A stretch of 64,000 nt of DNA, taken from positions 1 to 64,000 of the forward strand of contig LFSO01000040.1 in the NCBI GenBank assembly GCA_001512765.1, given 5' to 3'. Below, one piece after another: positions 11,076-36,098 of this stretch (within the stretch, counting starts at the first letter, position 1; the number at the start of each line of letters is the position of its first letter). Origin of the DNA: Clostridiales bacterium DTU053. GTDB taxonomy: Bacteria; Bacillota; Clostridia; Oscillospirales; Acutalibacteraceae. A program made the position numbers and the translations under genes. A model generated the notes under the pieces. It was not told where the DNA came from. It saw nothing but the letters and a program-made list of their open reading frames with translations, and did not search any database.

Positions 11076-12095
11076 TTAGTTATTGTTCTCTCTCTTTACG
11101 AGTACAAAGCCTTCGGTATTGGCAGGCAGAGTGATGTTAAGCTCTTCGCATACATCGGTGTTGATAACCTTTGCATAGTCTTTTACATACTCTACGGGAG
11201 TATCCTGTACGGACGCGCCCTTGAGAACCTTGTCAACCATTCTGGCTGTCAGCTTGCCTAAAGTTACATAGTTAATGCCTACTGTTGCAAGACCGCCCTC
11301 TTTAACCATTGAGTCCGCGCCGCAGAAAATGGGCTTTTTCTTCTCGAGAGCTACCTGAGCATAGGTGTTCATGCCGGATGCTACGGTGTTGTCGTCGGGA
11401 GTGAAGAAGGCGTCAACCTCGTCAATGATGGATGCTACAGCCTGCTGAATGTCGCCGGTTACTGCAACATTTGCCTCCTTGTAAGCGATTCCGTTCTCGT
11501 CGCAGTATTTCTTTGCTCTCTCAATAGCGGAAACGGAGTTTGCCTCGCCCACATTGTAGATAAAGCCGATTGTCTTGATTGAGGGAACAAGCTCCTTAGC
11601 AAAGGCAAGGGTCTGGTCAACAGGTATTGAGTCGGAAACGCCTGTGATGTTTTCAGCGGGCTTTTCAATGTCTGTTACAAGACCTGCCTTAACAGGGTCG
11701 CTTACTGCGGAGAAAATAATGGGCTTGTCGCTTACCGCAGCCTTTGCGGCCTGAGCTGTGGGGGTTGCGATGGGAACATAAATGTCCACTTTTTCAGTGA
11801 TGAGGTTGTTGTAGATTGAGGGCAGCAGGGACATATCGCCGTTGGCGTTCTTAAGTATTATTTCTGCTTTGTCATCTGTGTATCCGAGAGCTTTAAGCTC
11901 TGCCACAATTGTGTCACGGATTTCGTTCAGTGAAAGGTGCTCCATGGGCTGAATTATAGCGATTTTGAATTTCTTTGCGTCGCCGCCGGCTGCGCTTGTT
12001 TCCCCGTCGGAATCCTTTTTAGCGCAAGCAAAAAGAGTAAACACCATTGTAACTGCCAAGAGAACTGCAAAAACCTTTGTCAACTTTTTCATCAT
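11076..12095 (-). CDS. ABC substrate-binding lipoprotein (PF04392, TrpX-like)
   Basis: A 339-residue lipoprotein with lipobox TLFAC near residue 24 and a Ser/Gly-rich linker. The periplasmic-binding-fold domain contains KIAIIQPMEHLSLNEIRDT, SDPVKAGLV, NVGEANSV, DNTVASG and GINYVTLG. These blocks match the PF04392 ABC substrate-binding family, some members of which (TrpX) belong to tryptophan-regulated transporters. Two adjacent ATGs follow a good AAAGGAGAGG site. It is the first gene of the importer operon behind the T-box leader, which ties substrate to an amino acid. Confidence 0.87.
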   Translation of the reverse strand: MMKKLTKVFAVLLAVTMVFTLFACAKKDSDGETSAAGGDAKKFKIAIIQPMEHLSLNEIRDTIVAELKALGYTDDKAEIILKNANGDMSLLPSIYNNLITEKVDIYVPIATPTAQAAKAAVSDKPIIFSAVSDPVKAGLVTDIEKPAENITGVSDSIPVDQTLAFAKELVPSIKTIGFIYNVGEANSVSAIERAKKYCDENGIAYKEANVAVTGDIQQAVASIIDEVDAFFTPDDNTVASGMNTYAQVALEKKKPIFCGADSMVKEGGLATVGINYVTLGKLTARMVDKVLKGASVQDTPVEYVKDYAKVINTDVCEELNITLPANTEGFVLVKRENNN

Positions 12096-12183
12096 GTACC
12101 TCTCCTTTAAGATTTTGTTGAGTTGATTGGCCGATTTGTGTACGCGTACTTAAATCGATAAGTTTCTCTTTTTGCTGTTGGAC

Positions 12184-12476
12184 AAAAAGAAAAGACCTAT
12201 CCTTACTTTCATAAGGACAGGTCATAAAATACCTGCGGTGCCACCTTATTTGGCCGCCGTGAAGCGACCCACTCAGCGGGATGCCAACACATCCCCGTTC
12301 CTTAACGCAGACTCACGTCCTCGATACTCGGCTGCATGCAGCCTTTCACTCGGCCCTCAGCGGACCATTTGCACTGACCTGCATCTCGATGAGCATCCCA
12401 CCACCGCTCACTCTCTGGGCGCGCATATGTCAGCTTAACTTCCGCTTCATCGGTTTAATAGCTGATATTCAATTGT
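12184..12476 (-). ncRNA. T-box riboswitch leader, probably tRNA-Trp responsive
   Basis: The T-box core AAGGTGGCACCGCAG is read on the minus strand at 12233-12247. It is followed by a terminator with a 12-pair stem (12194-12205 with 12212-12223) and a T-run ending at 12184. Stem I is recognisable: the base pairs AGCGGA with TCCGCT and a second helix pairs CTGAC with GTCAG, leaving an internal loop with 3' side TGCAAATGG. The specifier is either UGG (Trp, bases 12365-12367) or AUG (Met, shifted by one base). Trp fits the TrpXYZ-type genes better. Uncharged tRNA would stabilise the antiterminator and turn on the importer. Confidence 0.9.
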
Positions 12477-12482
12477 GAACTG

Positions 12483-12511
12483 ATAATAGCATGCAGAATT
12501 TCCTTTGTCAA
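12483..12511 (-). promoter_or_regulatory. SigA promoter of the T-box operon
   Basis: Consensus TTGACA (12506-12511), exact 17-base spacer, TATTAT (12483-12488) on the minus strand. Transcription would start near 12476, just before stem I of the T-box. Confidence 0.85.
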
Positions 12512-12539
12512 CAATAATTTATAAAAATACCAATTTTTA

Positions 12540-13451
12540 TTAAAACTGCCTATCCAAGCCGGCTAAGAAATCAGACAGGTTATTATAATTATACATTATT
12601 CCTGCGTCAAAATCGATGCTCGGGTTTAGATTAATTATATTGTCGATTCGCTCAATAAATGCATAAAGCTCATTTTTTTTCTTCTCTTCCGCCTTTTCCG
12701 CGGCGGATAAGGAGAATGCCTTAATGTATTTTATTGTGTCTTGGTCAATTCTGTGATAATAAATATACCCGAAAAACGCTTTTGCCCTGCCGCTTGAAAC
12801 AGCCCAGTATATTGGTCTGCCCGAATAGGCTCTTACATGCTCTTTGTAGAAATCTTTTAAAAAGTAGCTGTCAAGCACAGCTAAGGGCGAGCCAATGTAA
12901 GAATCGCCGCTCAGGGCTTTTGCGATAAATTTCATGTTTTCTTCGTATATTTCCTCGCCGAAAACTGTTTTTATAAATTCTGAGACCAAAAGGCTTAAAT
13001 CATTTTTTAGCCCGTATTTTCTGCCCGCCAAAACTACTATGTTTTCTTTTACGGGAGGAAAAGTTTTATATTTTTCTTCATCCCACTCCCCGCCCGCAAA
13101 AATTAAACCTTCAAAATCCAAAGAATAGCGGCCAAAAACGCAGCCAACAGCATAGGATATAAGGTCAGAGACTGCTGACCTTATATCCTTCATTTTTATG
13201 CCAATATCTTTTTCGGAAGGCTCGGTGCTGACAATTCCATCGAGATTGTAGGCGTTCGCAAAAATTTCGTTTATTCTTTTCTGCCTTACTTTTTGAGCCT
13301 CAATTTCCGCGCTGATTTTTTTCTCAAATTCTTTTAGGCAATCCTCAATAAGAATCATTTCATAACCGCTTTTTTCAATAATTTTAAGCCAAAACCTTAA
13401 AAGGATTGTACCGAATATCATTTTTTGAGTCAAGTTTTTTGGATTCAGCAT
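12540..13451 (-). pseudogene. C-terminal remnant of a PglX (BREX-type) adenine methyltransferase
   Basis: A 303-residue open frame that aligns by eye with only the last quarter of PglX-family DNA adenine methyltransferases. The matching blocks are LISYAVGCVFGRYSLD (98-112), GLIFAGGEWD, YFLKDFYKEHVRAY (196-209), GRPIYWAVSSG (211-221), YYHRIDQDTI and IDFDAGIMYNY (279-289). The S-adenosylmethionine-binding and NPPY catalytic parts (normally the first ~800 residues) are absent. No other BREX or restriction gene is nearby. There is no ribosome site before the ATG at 13451, and the first ~35 residues look scrambled. The last ~270 residues are intact, so loss is recent or a small domain is being kept. 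Confidence 0.7.
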
Positions 13452-13525
13452 TGTAAGAGCGCAAAAATCGCTTTAAAATTACAAATTTCAATTAAAAAAA
13501 TATAATTTAGTCCCTCTAAACTGTA

Positions 13526-13551
13526 ACGCAATTTATTCTTTAACATATCAT
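13526..13551 (+). promoter_or_regulatory. Possible SigK/SigE-like promoter for the 28-residue peptide gene
   Basis: CATATCAT (13544-13551) fits the sporulation -10 pattern CATAnnnT. An AC dinucleotide 16 bases upstream (13526-13527) fits the short SigK -35. No SigA-type promoter is evident at this position. The pattern is short, so chance matches are likely. Confidence 0.35.
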
Positions 13552-13582
13552 GTTCATGAAAGCACGAAAGGAGGAACGATTT

Positions 13583-13669
13583 ATGAATTGCTTATCCGGA
13601 AACAATAGCTGCTTGATTCTCATCCTTTTACTCTTACTCCTTGCCGATAGTAACAATCACTGCTGCTAA
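13583..13669 (+). CDS. 28-residue Leu/Cys-rich hydrophobic peptide
   Basis: The product has a polar N-terminus (MNCLSGNNSC), a run of about ten Leu/Ile residues and a polar tail (ADSNNHCC). A strong site AAAGGAGGAA lies 5-8 bases before the ATG, and a strong terminator follows the stop by about 20 bases, so this is a complete small transcription unit. A sporulation-type promoter may precede it. The size and single hydrophobic core with Cys/Asn-rich ends recall the small spore-associated peptides of Firmicutes (YjcZ-like in general style), but no family is assigned. Confidence 0.6.
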   Translation: MNCLSGNNSCLILILLLLLLADSNNHCC

Positions 13670-13690
13670 TCGCCGATAAAGTCTAAACGA

Positions 13691-13719
13691 AAAGGCTGTC
13701 AAACGACAGCCTTTTTGTT
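13691..13719 (+). terminator. Terminator of the 28-residue peptide gene
   Basis: Ten-pair stem (13691-13700 with 13705-13714), AAAC loop, then a T-rich run. Confidence 0.9.
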
Positions 13720-13837
13720 GTTTTATTTTTAATTTAATTAAATTCAAGGCTAAATTAAAGGCTTAAAAGAATTAATTCTGCTTTTTAATGGAATAATTTA
13801 ATTTGAAAAATCTTAATACTTTAATTTCAATGACAAC

Positions 13838-13867
13838 TTGACAAAATCAAACAAAAAGTGGGATAAT
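13838..13867 (+). promoter_or_regulatory. SigA promoter of the rsmD-coaD operon
   Basis: TTGACA (13838-13843), 18-base spacer, GATAAT (13862-13867). It lies about 60 bases before the rsmD start. Confidence 0.65.
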
Positions 13868-13925
13868 AACCTTAACTTATGCAGAAAATTTGCAGAAGAA
13901 CCGGCTCAAAAAAGCCAAGGTGACC

Positions 13926-31143: not shown

Positions 31144-32444
31144 TATTCAACCTTGCCCGAAACGGTTATGCCGTCAAAGCGTATCCACGGGAGCTTGGTG
31201 TGGCCGTCGCAGATAACTTCCTTTGAAATTCCCGAAATATTCTTCAGCATGGCGGCGATGTTGCCGCTTATCATGGTTTCTGTAATAGGCTTTGAGATTC
31301 TGCCGTTTTCAATAAGGAAGCTGTTTTTGGCGACGCCTGAAAAGTCGCCGTTGATTGCGGGTGAACCGCCCGAGAAACGGCAAACCAGAATGCCCTTTTC
31401 GGTGCTCTTGATTATTTCGTCAAGAGACTGCTCTCCGGGGGCGACCACATAGCAGCTGCTGGAGTTCTTGGCTCTGCTCTCGCCCGTCTTTCTTGCCGCA
31501 TAGTCGGAAAGACAGAAAGACTCAAGCACTCCGTTCTTTATAATGTCATAGTTTTCGCTTATATAGCCGTCATCGGTAATTCTCTCTCCCGCAACCATGC
31601 ACTCGTCCAAGGGATTTACAGAGAGTGTAAGGCAGTCGGAGGCGACCTTTTGGCCCAGCATATTACGCCACGGGCTTGTTCCGTCAATAATTGTGCCGTC
31701 GGAGACAAAATTGCCCACAGCCATTGAGATAAAGTCGGCAAGGCAGGAGGGAACAATAATAGCCTGACCCTCAAACTTTCCTGTAAAGGCTTCAGCGTCA
31801 AGCAGCTTTACGGTTTGGTCAAATATATCCCTCTGACCCGCAAGCTCTATGATGCTGTCCTCAAGTGAAGTAAAGGCAATTTCAAAATAATTGAACGATG
31901 TGGTTTTCTCTCCGTCATGGGCTGAGAACATGGGAGTGAGTGAATAGTAGCCGTTCTTGTAATTGAACTCAACGCCGTTTGTGTTCATAAAGACGGTTTC
32001 GGCGCAGGAGTAGTCGGCTATAAGCTGTTCTAAGACAATCTGCGGATAGGTTTTCTTAATCTCGTCCACATATTCCTTGATTCTGAAGAAGAACTTTTCC
32101 TTGTCGGGACTTAATACGCCTTTTTCAAAGCTCTTGTTTTCTGTCAGCTCCGCAATGCGCACAGCGTCATCCACAACGGAGGCGTTGGCGGCCGCTACGC
32201 ATTCCTCGGCAGCTTTGATTATATCCTCTTCGTTCAGCGAGTTTATGAACATCGTACCCTTTTTGCCGTCTTTTATAGCCTTCATGGCGACTCCCGCGTC
32301 AAAAAGGGAAATCATCTTGGTAAACTCGCTGTTTTCCGCATCTATTTCTTCCGACAGACCCGTAGTAACGACGCACTGGGCATGGTCTGCGCCTGCTTTT
32401 TTCAGGGCATCAAGAGTAAATACTGCAATTTCTTTATTAGTCAT
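31143..32444 (-). CDS. TldD/PmbA family protein, TldE (PmbA) type subunit
   Basis: A 433-residue member of the TldD/PmbA family that lacks the HExxxH zinc motif of the active subunit, as expected for the TldE/PmbA partner. Family blocks seen include LEQLIADYSCAETVFMNTNGVE, CMVAGERITDDGY, SSCYVVAPGE and SGVAKNSFLIENGRI. The active protease forms from a TldD-TldE heterodimer that cleaves unfolded peptides and trims some ribosomally made peptides. It starts 27 bases after the TldD gene with AAAGGG upstream, and ends at the terminator shared with DUF4091. Confidence 0.88.
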   Translation of the reverse strand: MTNKEIAVFTLDALKKAGADHAQCVVTTGLSEEIDAENSEFTKMISLFDAGVAMKAIKDGKKGTMFINSLNEEDIIKAAEECVAAANASVVDDAVRIAELTENKSFEKGVLSPDKEKFFFRIKEYVDEIKKTYPQIVLEQLIADYSCAETVFMNTNGVEFNYKNGYYSLTPMFSAHDGEKTTSFNYFEIAFTSLEDSIIELAGQRDIFDQTVKLLDAEAFTGKFEGQAIIVPSCLADFISMAVGNFVSDGTIIDGTSPWRNMLGQKVASDCLTLSVNPLDECMVAGERITDDGYISENYDIIKNGVLESFCLSDYAARKTGESRAKNSSSCYVVAPGEQSLDEIIKSTEKGILVCRFSGGSPAINGDFSGVAKNSFLIENGRISKPITETMISGNIAAMLKNISGISKEVICDGHTKLPWIRFDGITVSGKVE

Positions 32445-32471
32445 ACGGACATCCCTTTCATAAAATGGCTT

Positions 32472-33854
32472 TTATCTGCCGCCTATATTAACCTTGCACT
32501 TGATGGCGGGGCCGCCCATTGAAACGGGCATAAGCTGCTTTTTGCCGCAGTATCCCGATGAACTCCAGACCATATCGTCTGACACCATATCCACAGTTTT
32601 TAGCATTTCAAAGGCAACGCCAGAAATTGTGGTATCTCTTAAGGCTCTGCCGAGTTTTCCGTTTTTAATCTCATAGCCCATGGTGATGCCGAACATGAAT
32701 TCGCCGGTGGTGTCTGCCTGACCGTTCTGGGTTCTGGTAAGATAATATCCGTTGTCTATTGAGGCAATCATATCCGACAGCTTGTCCTTGCCGGGCAGAA
32801 TTGCTGTGTTTCTCATTCTGATAAGGGGTTCGTCAGAGAATTTATGCGCCCTTGCGTTTCCTGTGGGCTTTACATCATAGTACATTGCGCTCTCTCTGTT
32901 GTGCATATAGCCCACAAGTATGCCGTCTTTTATAAGCACCGCGTCTTCGCAAGGTGTTCCCTCGTCGTCCACATAGACGGGCAGCGGAACGGGCTTGCCC
33001 AAAGCTGTATGGGCAAAGTCTATCATTGTGATTTTATCCGAGGCTACCTCTCTGCCAAGGGTTTTTGAGGCTACGGAGCCTGCCATGACAAGGTCTGCCT
33101 CTACGGTGTGACCTACCGCTTCGTGGGCCAGCATTCCCGCAAGGGTCGCGTCGAGAACCACATCTCGGAGACCCGCGTTGGGGAATATGCCTTCCCTTTT
33201 CTGCATTAGCTCCTCATACAGCTTGTCTATTTCCTTGTGGCAGTCCTCGGGGCTCTTGTAAAGCTCATCGAAATAGCCCTCGCCGCCGCCTATCGGCTCA
33301 AAAAGCTCGACGGTGTCGCCGTCGGGGGTTTCAGCCGACAGCACCACATAGATATATGCGCGGGGCATTATGGCATGGGAATAGCCACCTTCGCTTGTGT
33401 AAAGGAGCTTTTCCATACTGTCCGCCCTTGCTATTACGGTGCGGCTCGCAAGGTTTTTGTATTTATTCGTAATATAGTCGTCAAGCTCCCTGCAAAAGTC
33501 GATATACGCGCTTTGGGGAACATCCACATAATCTCTTTTGAGGGGGTTGAAGGGGGGCTGAACGGGTACTAGCGGAGGCTTGCCCCTGCCTGCGTGGGTG
33601 TTAAGGAAATCGGCGTTATTCCTTGCCGCTGTGAGCACATCCGAAATTGCCTCATCCGTGTACTCACCTTTAGCGGCAAAACCCCAAACGCCGTTTTTGT
33701 AAACCCTTGCGCAAACACCCGAGCTCTGTGAGCGGACATTGGACACAAGGTTGCCGCTGACGATTGAAACTCCTCTGTTTGTATTTATCTGCGCTCTTAA
33801 TTCTGCGTGCTCAGGTATGCCTGAGATATGCTTCTTTAAAAGGTCATTCAGCAA
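32472..33854 (-). CDS. tldD: TldD family metalloprotease subunit
   Basis: A 460-residue zinc protease with the HExxxH motif in LAHEAVGHTVEADLV, followed by SDKITMIDFAHTALG, VDDEGTPCEDAVLIKDG and MHNRESAMYYDVKPTGNARA, the TldD signature blocks. The start is TTG at 33854, eight bases after GGAG. It pairs with the TldE-type protein encoded immediately downstream. No precursor-peptide gene was found nearby, so housekeeping peptide turnover is the likelier role. Confidence 0.92.
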   Translation of the reverse strand: MLNDLLKKHISGIPEHAELRAQINTNRGVSIVSGNLVSNVRSQSSGVCARVYKNGVWGFAAKGEYTDEAISDVLTAARNNADFLNTHAGRGKPPLVPVQPPFNPLKRDYVDVPQSAYIDFCRELDDYITNKYKNLASRTVIARADSMEKLLYTSEGGYSHAIMPRAYIYVVLSAETPDGDTVELFEPIGGGEGYFDELYKSPEDCHKEIDKLYEELMQKREGIFPNAGLRDVVLDATLAGMLAHEAVGHTVEADLVMAGSVASKTLGREVASDKITMIDFAHTALGKPVPLPVYVDDEGTPCEDAVLIKDGILVGYMHNRESAMYYDVKPTGNARAHKFSDEPLIRMRNTAILPGKDKLSDMIASIDNGYYLTRTQNGQADTTGEFMFGITMGYEIKNGKLGRALRDTTISGVAFEMLKTVDMVSDDMVWSSSGYCGKKQLMPVSMGGPAIKCKVNIGGR

Positions 33855-33893
33855 AATATCATCTCCAAATGAAACGATTTGGTTTCAAGTACT

Positions 33894-33923
33894 AGTATAT
33901 CCAATATTTGTATAATACCACAA
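33894..33923 (-). promoter_or_regulatory. Likely promoter of tldD
   Basis: TTGTGG (33918-33923), 18-base spacer, TATACT (33894-33899) on the minus strand. Confidence 0.5.
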
Positions 33924-33979
33924 ATTAATAGCATAAACAATGATGTTATAATGCCGTCTTTCATAAGATTTTAGGCTTA

Positions 33980-34008
33980 TTGACTAAGATTAGAATATAT
34001 ATTATTAT
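33980..34008 (+). promoter_or_regulatory. Likely promoter of the PAP2 phosphatase gene
   Basis: TTGACT (33980-33985), 17-base spacer, TATTAT (34003-34008), about 45 bases before the start codon. Confidence 0.6.
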
Positions 34009-34051
34009 GGATGAAACTGTGCTTTTTATTTTCTTTTAATTGGAGGATATT

Positions 34052-34672
34052 ATGGAGGCTATTTACAATTTTGACCACGCTGTATTTCAGTTTGTCCAAA
34101 AGTACATATGGAACGAGTCAATACTCCACCCCATAATGAAGGTAATAACCACTTTGGGCGACGGCGGCACCATATGGATTATTATTGCCCTAATTCTCTT
34201 ATTTACCAAAAAATATCGCAAATACGGCTTTATGATGGCTGCGGGTCTTATAATAACCCTTGTTGTAAACGACAATATCTTAAAGCCCCTTATAGCAAGA
34301 CCTCGTCCCTTTGATTTTGAGGGATGGACCGATTTTATTTATCCCGAAATAATTAAAAGACCGGACGGTTTCTCCTTCCCCTCGGGCCATACAACCTCCT
34401 CCTTCCTTTCCACTGTGCCGCTTTTGAAGGCGAATAAAAAGTTCGGAATTCCCGCTTTGGTTCTGGCGGCTCTGATTGCCTTCTCAAGAGTATATGTGTT
34501 CGTTCACTATCCCACGGATATTCTTGGCGGCATTGTAATGGGCTTTATTTACGGTCTTCTCGGCTGCCTTATAGTTGACCAAATTTATAAGGCAATCGAA
34601 AGAAGAAAAATGAAAAAGAGAATGGAAAGCAAGACAGAAGAAGCAACAGAAGAAACAACCGTTAACGCATAA
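34052..34672 (+). CDS. PAP2-family membrane phosphatase
   Basis: A 206-residue integral membrane protein with five or six hydrophobic segments and all three phosphatase motifs: KPLIARPRP, PSGHTTS and SRVYVFVHYPTD. Members dephosphorylate lipid phosphates such as undecaprenyl pyrophosphate or phosphatidic acid on the outer face of the membrane; the substrate is not readable here. Start is ATG 34052 after GGAGG. The C-terminal tail is highly charged (KMKKRMESKTEEATEE). It is monocistronic with its own promoter and terminator. Confidence 0.9.
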   Translation: MEAIYNFDHAVFQFVQKYIWNESILHPIMKVITTLGDGGTIWIIIALILLFTKKYRKYGFMMAAGLIITLVVNDNILKPLIARPRPFDFEGWTDFIYPEIIKRPDGFSFPSGHTTSSFLSTVPLLKANKKFGIPALVLAALIAFSRVYVFVHYPTDILGGIVMGFIYGLLGCLIVDQIYKAIERRKMKKRMESKTEEATEETTVNA

Positions 34673-34713
34673 AAAAAAGAGCGGAAGGCTGCGGCTTTTC
34701 GCTCTTTTTTTGT
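34671..34713 (+). terminator. Terminator of the PAP2 gene
   Basis: Stem of AAGAGCG with CGCTCTT extended by an AAG/CTT pairing, GC-rich loop, flanked by an A-run and a T-run. Confidence 0.85.
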
Positions 34714-34732
34714 TTACTCCGCCCCGCTTTAA

Positions 34733-34761
34733 TTGAATTTAAAGGAACGCTGTGATAGAAT
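34733..34761 (+). promoter_or_regulatory. Promoter of the deaminase-PNP-mtnA operon
   Basis: TTGAAT (34733-34738), 17-base spacer, TAGAAT (34756-34761), 30 bases before the GTG start codon. Confidence 0.55.
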
Positions 34762-34790
34762 AATTTAACAATTCAAAAGGGGGAATTCTT

Positions 34791-36098
34791 GTGCCTCTGG
34801 GACAAGTATCGGTGCTATTTAAGAATATAAGTATTCTCAATGATTTTTTTGATGTTAAAGAGAATATGTATGTCGGCGTTGAGAATGGGATTATTAATTT
34901 TGTTGGAGAAAAAAAACCTGATAAAAAATACGAAACCGAAATTGACGGCAGCGGAAAGCTGCTGGCTCCGGGCTTTTTTAATCTCCACTCCCACGCCGCG
35001 ATGACGATACTTAGGGGTTATGCGGAGAACCTACCTTTGGACAGGTGGCTTAATGAGAAGATTTTTCCCTTTGAGGCGAGGCTCACTGAGCAGGATGTTT
35101 ATAACGGAGTAATGCTCGCCGCCGCGGAGATGCTGAGATTCGGCATTGTGTCGTTCTCGGATATGTATATGTTCGGCGCCGCTACGGCAAGGGCGGTCAG
35201 CGATTCGGGGCTAAAATGCAATTTGTCGGTACCCGTATTCTGCTTTGACGATAAGGACGCGGACAAGCTCCCCGTTTTGAATGACCTTGATAAACTGATG
35301 GATGAGTTTAAAGACTCAAAGAATATTATTTTTGAGCTGGCGGTGCATGCGGAATATACATCGACCGAAAAGGCTGTAAGGAATTCCGCTGAATACGCAA
35401 AGGATAGGAATCTGGGCGTTCATATTCACCTTTCTGAAACAAAAAAGGAGCATGAGGAGTGCAAAATCCGCCACGGCAAAACTCCCGCCGAGTATTTTGC
35501 GGACTGCGGGCTCTTTGATTTAAGGACAACCGCCGCCCACTGCGTTTATGTGGAAGACAGAGATTTAGATATTCTAAAGGAGCACAATGTCTCCCCCGCT
35601 TTAAACCCAGCAAGCAACATGAAGCTGGCAAGCGGCTTTGCACCCGTGCCGAAAATGCTTGAAAAAGGAATCAACATCTGCCTTGGAACCGACGGAGCCG
35701 CAAGCAGCAACAATCTTAATATGCAGAAGGATTTATACCTTTTGTCAATAATCTATAAGGCGGCTTACGAAGACGCCGCCGCCGTCAGCTACAAAGACTG
35801 TCTGAAGGCTGCCACCGTAAACGGGGCTAAAGCTCAAAACAGGCCCGACACGGGCGTTATTAAGGAAGGCTGCAGGGCGGATTTGAGAATGATTGACACA
35901 GAGTGGCCCAATATGCGCCCTGCCACTGACATGGCAAGCAACCTTGTTTACGCGCTGTCGGGCGGTGAAAACCTTATGACAATGGTCGACGGCAGGATAC
36001 TTTATTACAACAACGAGTATTACTCATTTGATATAGAAAAGGTAAAGCACGAGGCTGAAAGGTCTGTAAAGAGAATTATTTCAGAGCTTGACAATTAG
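34791..36098 (+). CDS. S-adenosylhomocysteine / 5'-methylthioadenosine / 5'-deoxyadenosine deaminase family
   Basis: A 435-residue amidohydrolase of the MtaD/DadD type that deaminates the adenine of 5'-modified adenosines. Metal and active-site blocks are present: FFNLHSHAAM, VHIHLSETKKEHEEC, TTAAHCVYVEDRD and GTDGAASSNNLNM. The start is GTG 34791 with AAGGGGG upstream. A purine nucleoside phosphorylase and MtnA are encoded directly downstream (10-base gap, then a 4-base overlap), which strongly suggests the substrate is methylthioadenosine or 5'-deoxyadenosine, the radical-SAM by-product, rather than free adenosine. Confidence 0.87.
   Translation: MPLGQVSVLFKNISILNDFFDVKENMYVGVENGIINFVGEKKPDKKYETEIDGSGKLLAPGFFNLHSHAAMTILRGYAENLPLDRWLNEKIFPFEARLTEQDVYNGVMLAAAEMLRFGIVSFSDMYMFGAATARAVSDSGLKCNLSVPVFCFDDKDADKLPVLNDLDKLMDEFKDSKNIIFELAVHAEYTSTEKAVRNSAEYAKDRNLGVHIHLSETKKEHEECKIRHGKTPAEYFADCGLFDLRTTAAHCVYVEDRDLDILKEHNVSPALNPASNMKLASGFAPVPKMLEKGINICLGTDGAASSNNLNMQKDLYLLSIIYKAAYEDAAAVSYKDCLKAATVNGAKAQNRPDTGVIKEGCRADLRMIDTEWPNMRPATDMASNLVYALSGGENLMTMVDGRILYYNNEYYSFDIEKVKHEAERSVKRIISELDN

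Follow-up and report, generated by a model that had tools for sequence, protein, structure and literature searches.

The gene at positions 12540-13451 (minus strand) of contig LFSO01000040.1 from Clostridiales bacterium DTU053 (assembly GCA_001512765.1; the 64,000-nucleotide stretch analysed is called the window here) encodes a protein related to PglX, the methyltransferase of the bacteriophage exclusion (BREX) defence system. Its product is, beyond doubt, a PglX C-terminus. The enzyme to which it belongs is probably an orphan adenine DNA methyltransferase of the PglX type that is independent of BREX and consists of two subunits assembled in trans. This gene would supply the C-terminal subunit; the N-terminal half is encoded on a different contig of the genome.

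The open frame is intact, and its product matches the PADLOC profile PDLC02521 (E=1.8e-66, profile positions 876-1086 of 1174), the NCBIfam model NF033452 (3.1e-60, positions 905-1127 of 1210; 204 bits, where the cut-off of the model for the whole protein is 500 bits), and the structures of E. coli BrxX (PDB 9ewz) and Salmonella PglX (8c45), both at about 1e-31. A Pfam search of the product gave no match, and Pfam holds no model for the C-terminal part of PglX. The AlphaFold model is a confident single fold (mean predicted local distance difference test score 92.4), whose significant PDB neighbours are six chains, all of them PglX/BrxX, with TMq values of 0.70-0.86. Therefore, the initial annotation, which had been made from the sequence of the window, was right in recognizing a stand-alone match to the PglX C-terminus in an intact frame. 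The AT-rich setting that it described was also found (GC content 35-41%, versus about 46-47% across most of the window). The start at 13451 has been corrected to the ATG at 13358 (M32), which yields a protein of 272 residues, because the sister species starts there, the 31 codons upstream are not conserved, and a promoter-like site lies downstream of the ATG at 13451.

A search of the genome with NF033452 revealed two matches: the gene in the window and a gene on contig 28, which covers model positions 203-907 with 550.6 bits, above the curated cut-off of 500. This second gene (G000:C28:53517-55910, where G000 is the genome of the window) is located between aspS and asp23, begins at a TTG overlapping the stop codon of aspS, and encodes 797 residues that include the S-adenosylmethionine (SAM)-binding motif DPCAGSGN (motif I), the NPPY motif (motif IV), and the target-recognition domain. 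The absence of a catalytic part, as previously noted, thus holds for the locus at 12540-13451, but not for the genome. The N half ends at the residue where the C half begins, and when both proteins are used as queries against fused homologues from other genera they abut almost exactly (in L042, the N half ends at 852 and the C half starts at 854), indicating that the protein has been divided with precision and that the gene in the window encodes one of the halves. The genome contains no fused copy of PglX. The family features are distributed over two genes, with the C-terminal fold and sequence in the window and the SAM and NPPY motifs in its partner, rather than united in the single polypeptide typical of PglX/BrxX; many BREX loci share this departure, so that a single polypeptide cannot be taken as a strict criterion for the family.

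The position of the seam can be placed on the known structures. The N half aligns to Salmonella PglX up to residue 887 and ends 8 residues further on, while the alignment of the C half begins at about residue 970, 62 residues past its own start. In Salmonella PglX, two long spacer helices occupy residues 850-960 (PMC11341690), and the C half opens, according to AlphaFold, with a 33-residue helix (residues 4-36). From these data, it follows that the split falls between the two spacer helices. The C half consists of the second spacer helix plus the C-terminal domain, while the recognition domain resides in the N half, contrary to the earlier suggestion that the small protein keeps the target-recognition module. 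At this site, the two chains might come together again in antiparallel orientation.

Both halves are also present in a congeneric species (G001), in the same two housekeeping places as in G000: the C half between trpX with its T-box and rsmD, and the N half between aspS and asp23-dak. The sister-genome comparison proposed earlier thus recovers the same arrangement. Identity between the two species is 67-69% and about 61% for the halves. Nei-Gojobori estimates of non-synonymous (dN) and synonymous (dS) divergence are 0.27 and 1.13 for the C half (dN/dS about 0.24) and 0.24 and 1.22 for the N half (about 0.19), and not a single stop or frameshift was found over 272 and 794 aligned codons, respectively, in either species. 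Judged from these alignments, both halves are under purifying selection; the tests suggested at the outset, including that for selection, proved to be the decisive ones. Sites that change the protein evolve about 4-5 times more slowly than silent sites, yet faster than in the neighbouring housekeeping genes. The initial annotation had seen no other BREX gene. PglZ (searched with the Pfam model PF08665 and a protein query) and BrxC are absent from the genomes of both species, in contrast to the strong matches in the BREX-bearing positive controls G049 and G249. The genome of the window consequently lacks the PglZ and BrxC components that define a BREX defence system.

A second lineage with dispersed halves was found in Ruminococcus. 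In R. flavefaciens ATCC 19208 and in a relative from the rumen, a solitary C gene (that is, one outside any BREX locus and with no N gene alongside) adjoins ABC (ATP-binding cassette) exporters, and other loci hold solitary N genes that end precisely at the seam; these C and N loci are different, and each is conserved. A C match is present in 19 of 60 Ruminococcus genomes, each time together with an N match; two further genomes have only N and 39 have neither. The subunits are retained together in G000, in G001, and in all 14 Ruminococcus genomes with a solitary C gene, every one of which holds a solitary N gene (Fisher p about 3e-12, without phylogenetic correction, so that independence is overstated among these related species); 11 of the 14 have two N genes for one C gene. 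PglZ is missing from 12 of these 14, and the other two have a separate BREX locus in addition. A single 3.6 Mb contig of G692 contains all three genes, 274 kb to 2.9 Mb apart, so the dispersal in Ruminococcus is not caused by assembly. The SAM-binding and NPPY motifs are intact in the five dispersed N subunits that were aligned. The neighbours of the Ruminococcus C genes (loci L108, L164-L173 and L211-L217) vary by species and include ABC exporters, response regulators, and others; as they differ between species, they are unlikely to be functional partners. Phylogenetic trees do not reject a single clade of the dispersed forms from the genus of the window and from Ruminococcus, either for the C gene (approximately unbiased test, p-AU 0.19) or for the N gene (p-AU 0.77). 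The branch of the C gene of the window is long, and the trees are compatible with one or two origins. Look-ups in phages and plasmids retrieved distant matches to the C gene; almost all the plasmid matches listed are annotated as pglX, and the phage look-ups gave no convincing case of a stand-alone C gene.

Division of pglX at this seam is not restricted to dispersed genes. While a scan of GTDB genomes with a single-protein query found nothing, a scan with an alignment of the C domain recovered 80 loci. About a dozen of the clostridial BREX loci have adjacent, separate genes for N (about 815-875 residues) and C (about 290-315 residues), divided at the same seam, including Ruminococcus callidus ATCC 27760, and their C genes start with M..LISDKFKEWE. 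Since two-gene PglX already exists within BREX, the unusual part of the arrangement reported here is the dispersal without BREX. In some BREX loci, a single C gene accompanies two N genes; at L052 (on contig 9 of G249) these N genes are different, as if C served two specificities. In addition, consecutive partial frames for the pglX recognition domain (about 254 residues) occur beside pglX pieces on contig 11 of G123 (32193-35722), which suggests shuffling of recognition domains.

The conservation of the recognition domain also sets the dispersed enzymes apart. In 1208 pairs of BREX PglX proteins with a catalytic-core identity of 45-75%, the mean identity of the recognition domain is 35%, and it exceeds that of the core in only 25 pairs. 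The reverse is observed in every pair of dispersed enzymes: 86% in the recognition domain versus 63% in the core between G000 and G001, and 67% versus 57% (N1) and 79% versus 57% (N2) in Ruminococcus. These comparisons point to a fixed DNA target for the solitary enzymes, as expected of an orphan methyltransferase that marks the genome and not of a defence system; conserved specificity is typical of the orphan type. In line with this type, no defence partner is encoded at the loci, which occupy the same place in both species; restriction nucleases were not searched genome-wide. Other genera of the family also have solitary, full-length PglX-like proteins of 1044-1165 residues, encoded among housekeeping genes (L042, L043, L044, L045, L047 and L049). 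In the five that were compared (all but L049), identity is 68% in the recognition domain and 58% in the core, and PglZ and BrxC are absent from the two genomes with such proteins that were checked (G026 and G077).

In fused PglX, the helices that correspond to the end of the N subunit and the beginning of the C subunit make up a single antiparallel spacer hairpin. In the proposed mechanism, these two helices would pair in trans and rebuild the lower jaw that grips DNA. The resulting complex would methylate one fixed, non-palindromic site of the host genome, and would act as an orphan (epigenetic) methyltransferase outside any BREX defence system. The binding of the halves to each other, the methylation of DNA, and the epigenetic role are all inferred. 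Several points weigh against the proposal. E. coli BrxX alone does not methylate, but needs BrxB, BrxC, and PglZ (PMC11842806); hence, an enzyme without BREX must have become autonomous, use another partner, or only bind DNA. The metal ligands of E. coli BrxX (D997, D999 and D1012; PMC11842806) align with V, E, and N in the C half, whose C domain is thus an imperfect copy, although these residues are not a strict criterion for the PglX/BrxX family. M32 is not preceded by a strong ribosome-binding site, just as none had been noticed for the longer frame, and the evidence from the genus comes from two species, G000 and G001.

Among the alternatives, the most serious is that the N-C complex binds DNA sequence-specifically and no longer methylates. 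E. coli BrxX alone does bind its site without methylating it (PMC11842806), and the conserved recognition domain would suit a fixed binding site. Nevertheless, the SAM and NPPY motifs are kept in all five dispersed N subunits of the alignment, and the N half is under purifying selection, neither of which a pure binder would need; we regard this possibility as unlikely. About as improbable, or slightly more so, is that the C subunit acts alone, either by binding DNA to regulate the neighbouring genes or as a decoy for inhibitors that mimic DNA, for example Ocr. It has a promoter-like site of its own and is far from the gene of its partner, but the genome has no BREX system to protect, its neighbours differ by lineage (trpX and rsmD here, ABC exporters or others in Ruminococcus), and no solitary C gene was found without N among the 60 Ruminococcus genomes. 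The free-standing decoy or inhibitor-binding domain proposed in the initial annotation is not supported, as the complementary N half occurs here and wherever else a solitary C gene was seen.

The other origin proposed there, the scar of a lost defence island, would make the two halves decaying remnants of pglX that remain open by chance. Although the missing PglZ and BrxC, the long tree branches, the AT-rich setting, and the loss of some BrxX metal-site residues would fit decay, this explanation is largely refuted by purifying selection on both halves at dS >1 without stops or frameshifts, and by synteny in a second species. The identical seam and start of C genes from unrelated BREX and Ruminococcus loci, the intact catalytic motifs, the conserved recognition domain, and the strict co-occurrence in Ruminococcus also speak against it, making it very improbable. 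That assembly or binning separated a single gene has a negligible likelihood: the genome is a 56-contig assembly, but both halves have complete and different housekeeping flanks in two species, no fused copy exists, and the distances in G692 are measured within one contig. Trans-splicing was also considered and is unsupported, because Rfam models gave no self-splicing intron above their gathering scores anywhere in the window, a more sensitive search of 11900-13900 likewise found none, and the seam shows no intein-like residues.

While the PglX family is known, the arrangement, a C-terminal subunit of a BREX-free PglX-type methyltransferase encoded in trans, is in all likelihood new; searches of the open-access literature found no report of a PglX with dispersed genes or a shared subunit. 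The data suggest that a phage-defence enzyme has been turned into a two-part enzyme for genome marking and, more generally, that phage-defence methyltransferases can become genome-marking enzymes of fixed specificity. More tentatively, a domesticated, BREX-free class of PglX might exist in gut Clostridia, modular in design, in which one dispersed C subunit would serve one N subunit (in the genus of the window) or two that differ in specificity (in Ruminococcus). Such enzymes would methylate without the BREX complex and leave fixed epigenetic marks. The C-terminal region of PglX has been described as being of unknown function. With a natural BREX-free PglX whose C domain has its own gene, both the function of this region and the inability of E. 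coli BrxX to methylate alone can be addressed by removing or supplying a single gene. The arrangement occurs in a named collection strain, R. flavefaciens ATCC 19208, which has two N genes and one C gene. The case further illustrates how annotation can mislead, as the N half alone passes the cut-off for "BREX-1 PglX", while the C half has no Pfam model.

Features of the locus of the proposed C subunit in the window (positions in window coordinates)
Feature	Positions	Strand	Basis
Coding sequence of the C-terminal PglX subunit (272 residues plus stop; ATG at 13358, MILIEDCLKEFE...)	12540..13358	-	PglX matches; start common to sister species; dN/dS about 0.24; fold of the BrxX/PglX C-terminal domain
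Predicted first helix (residues 4-36), corresponding to the second spacer helix of PglX; would contact the last helix of the partner	13251..13349	-	AlphaFold; seam alignments; PMC11341690
Promoter-like TTGACT-17-TACAAT, about 46 nucleotides upstream of the start codon	13405..13433	-	10 of 12 consensus positions, a consensus match only; poorly conserved in sister species
In-frame extension of 31 codons, probably untranslated	13359..13451	-	Not conserved; ATG at 13451 upstream of the promoter-like site

Two further elements flank this locus. On the plus strand, 13583-13669 encodes a hydrophobic, Cys-containing peptide of 28 residues (MNCLSGNNSCLILILLLLLLADSNNHCC), preceded by a strong ribosome-binding site (aaaggagg) and conserved at the same place in the sister species. 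On the minus strand, a T-box leader at 12459-12210 (82.3 bits, E 8.7e-18, slightly below the Rfam gathering score) precedes the gene for a TrpX-like ABC substrate-binding protein and has its own promoter-like sequence, TTGACA-17-TATTAT, at 12511-12483.

Among known systems, BREX-1 PglX/BrxX (9ewz, 8c45, NF033452) resembles the two halves joined together in its domain order, C-terminal fold, and SAM and NPPY motifs. However, it is one polypeptide encoded in a BREX cluster, needs BrxB, BrxC, and PglZ, and has a variable recognition domain, whereas here two dispersed genes, without BREX, encode a conserved one. The split pglX of clostridial BREX loci shares the seam, the start of the C gene, and the subunit sizes, but its N and C genes are neighbours within the BREX locus. 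In type I HsdS and half-HsdS proteins (PMC6158711), spacer helices likewise pair to unite recognition and other domains, and half subunits can form active enzymes; in contrast, HsdS has no catalytic domain and half-HsdS proteins form dimers of like halves, while those described here are unlike halves of a methyltransferase. CamA from C. difficile and other orphan adenine methyltransferases are similarly solitary, conserved across genomes, and devoid of a restriction partner, although CamA is a single polypeptide instead of two subunits. CamA is also much shorter and is not known to carry the PglX C-terminal domain. In structure, the catalytic domains of CamA and BrxX are comparable (PMC11842806, PMC8187626).
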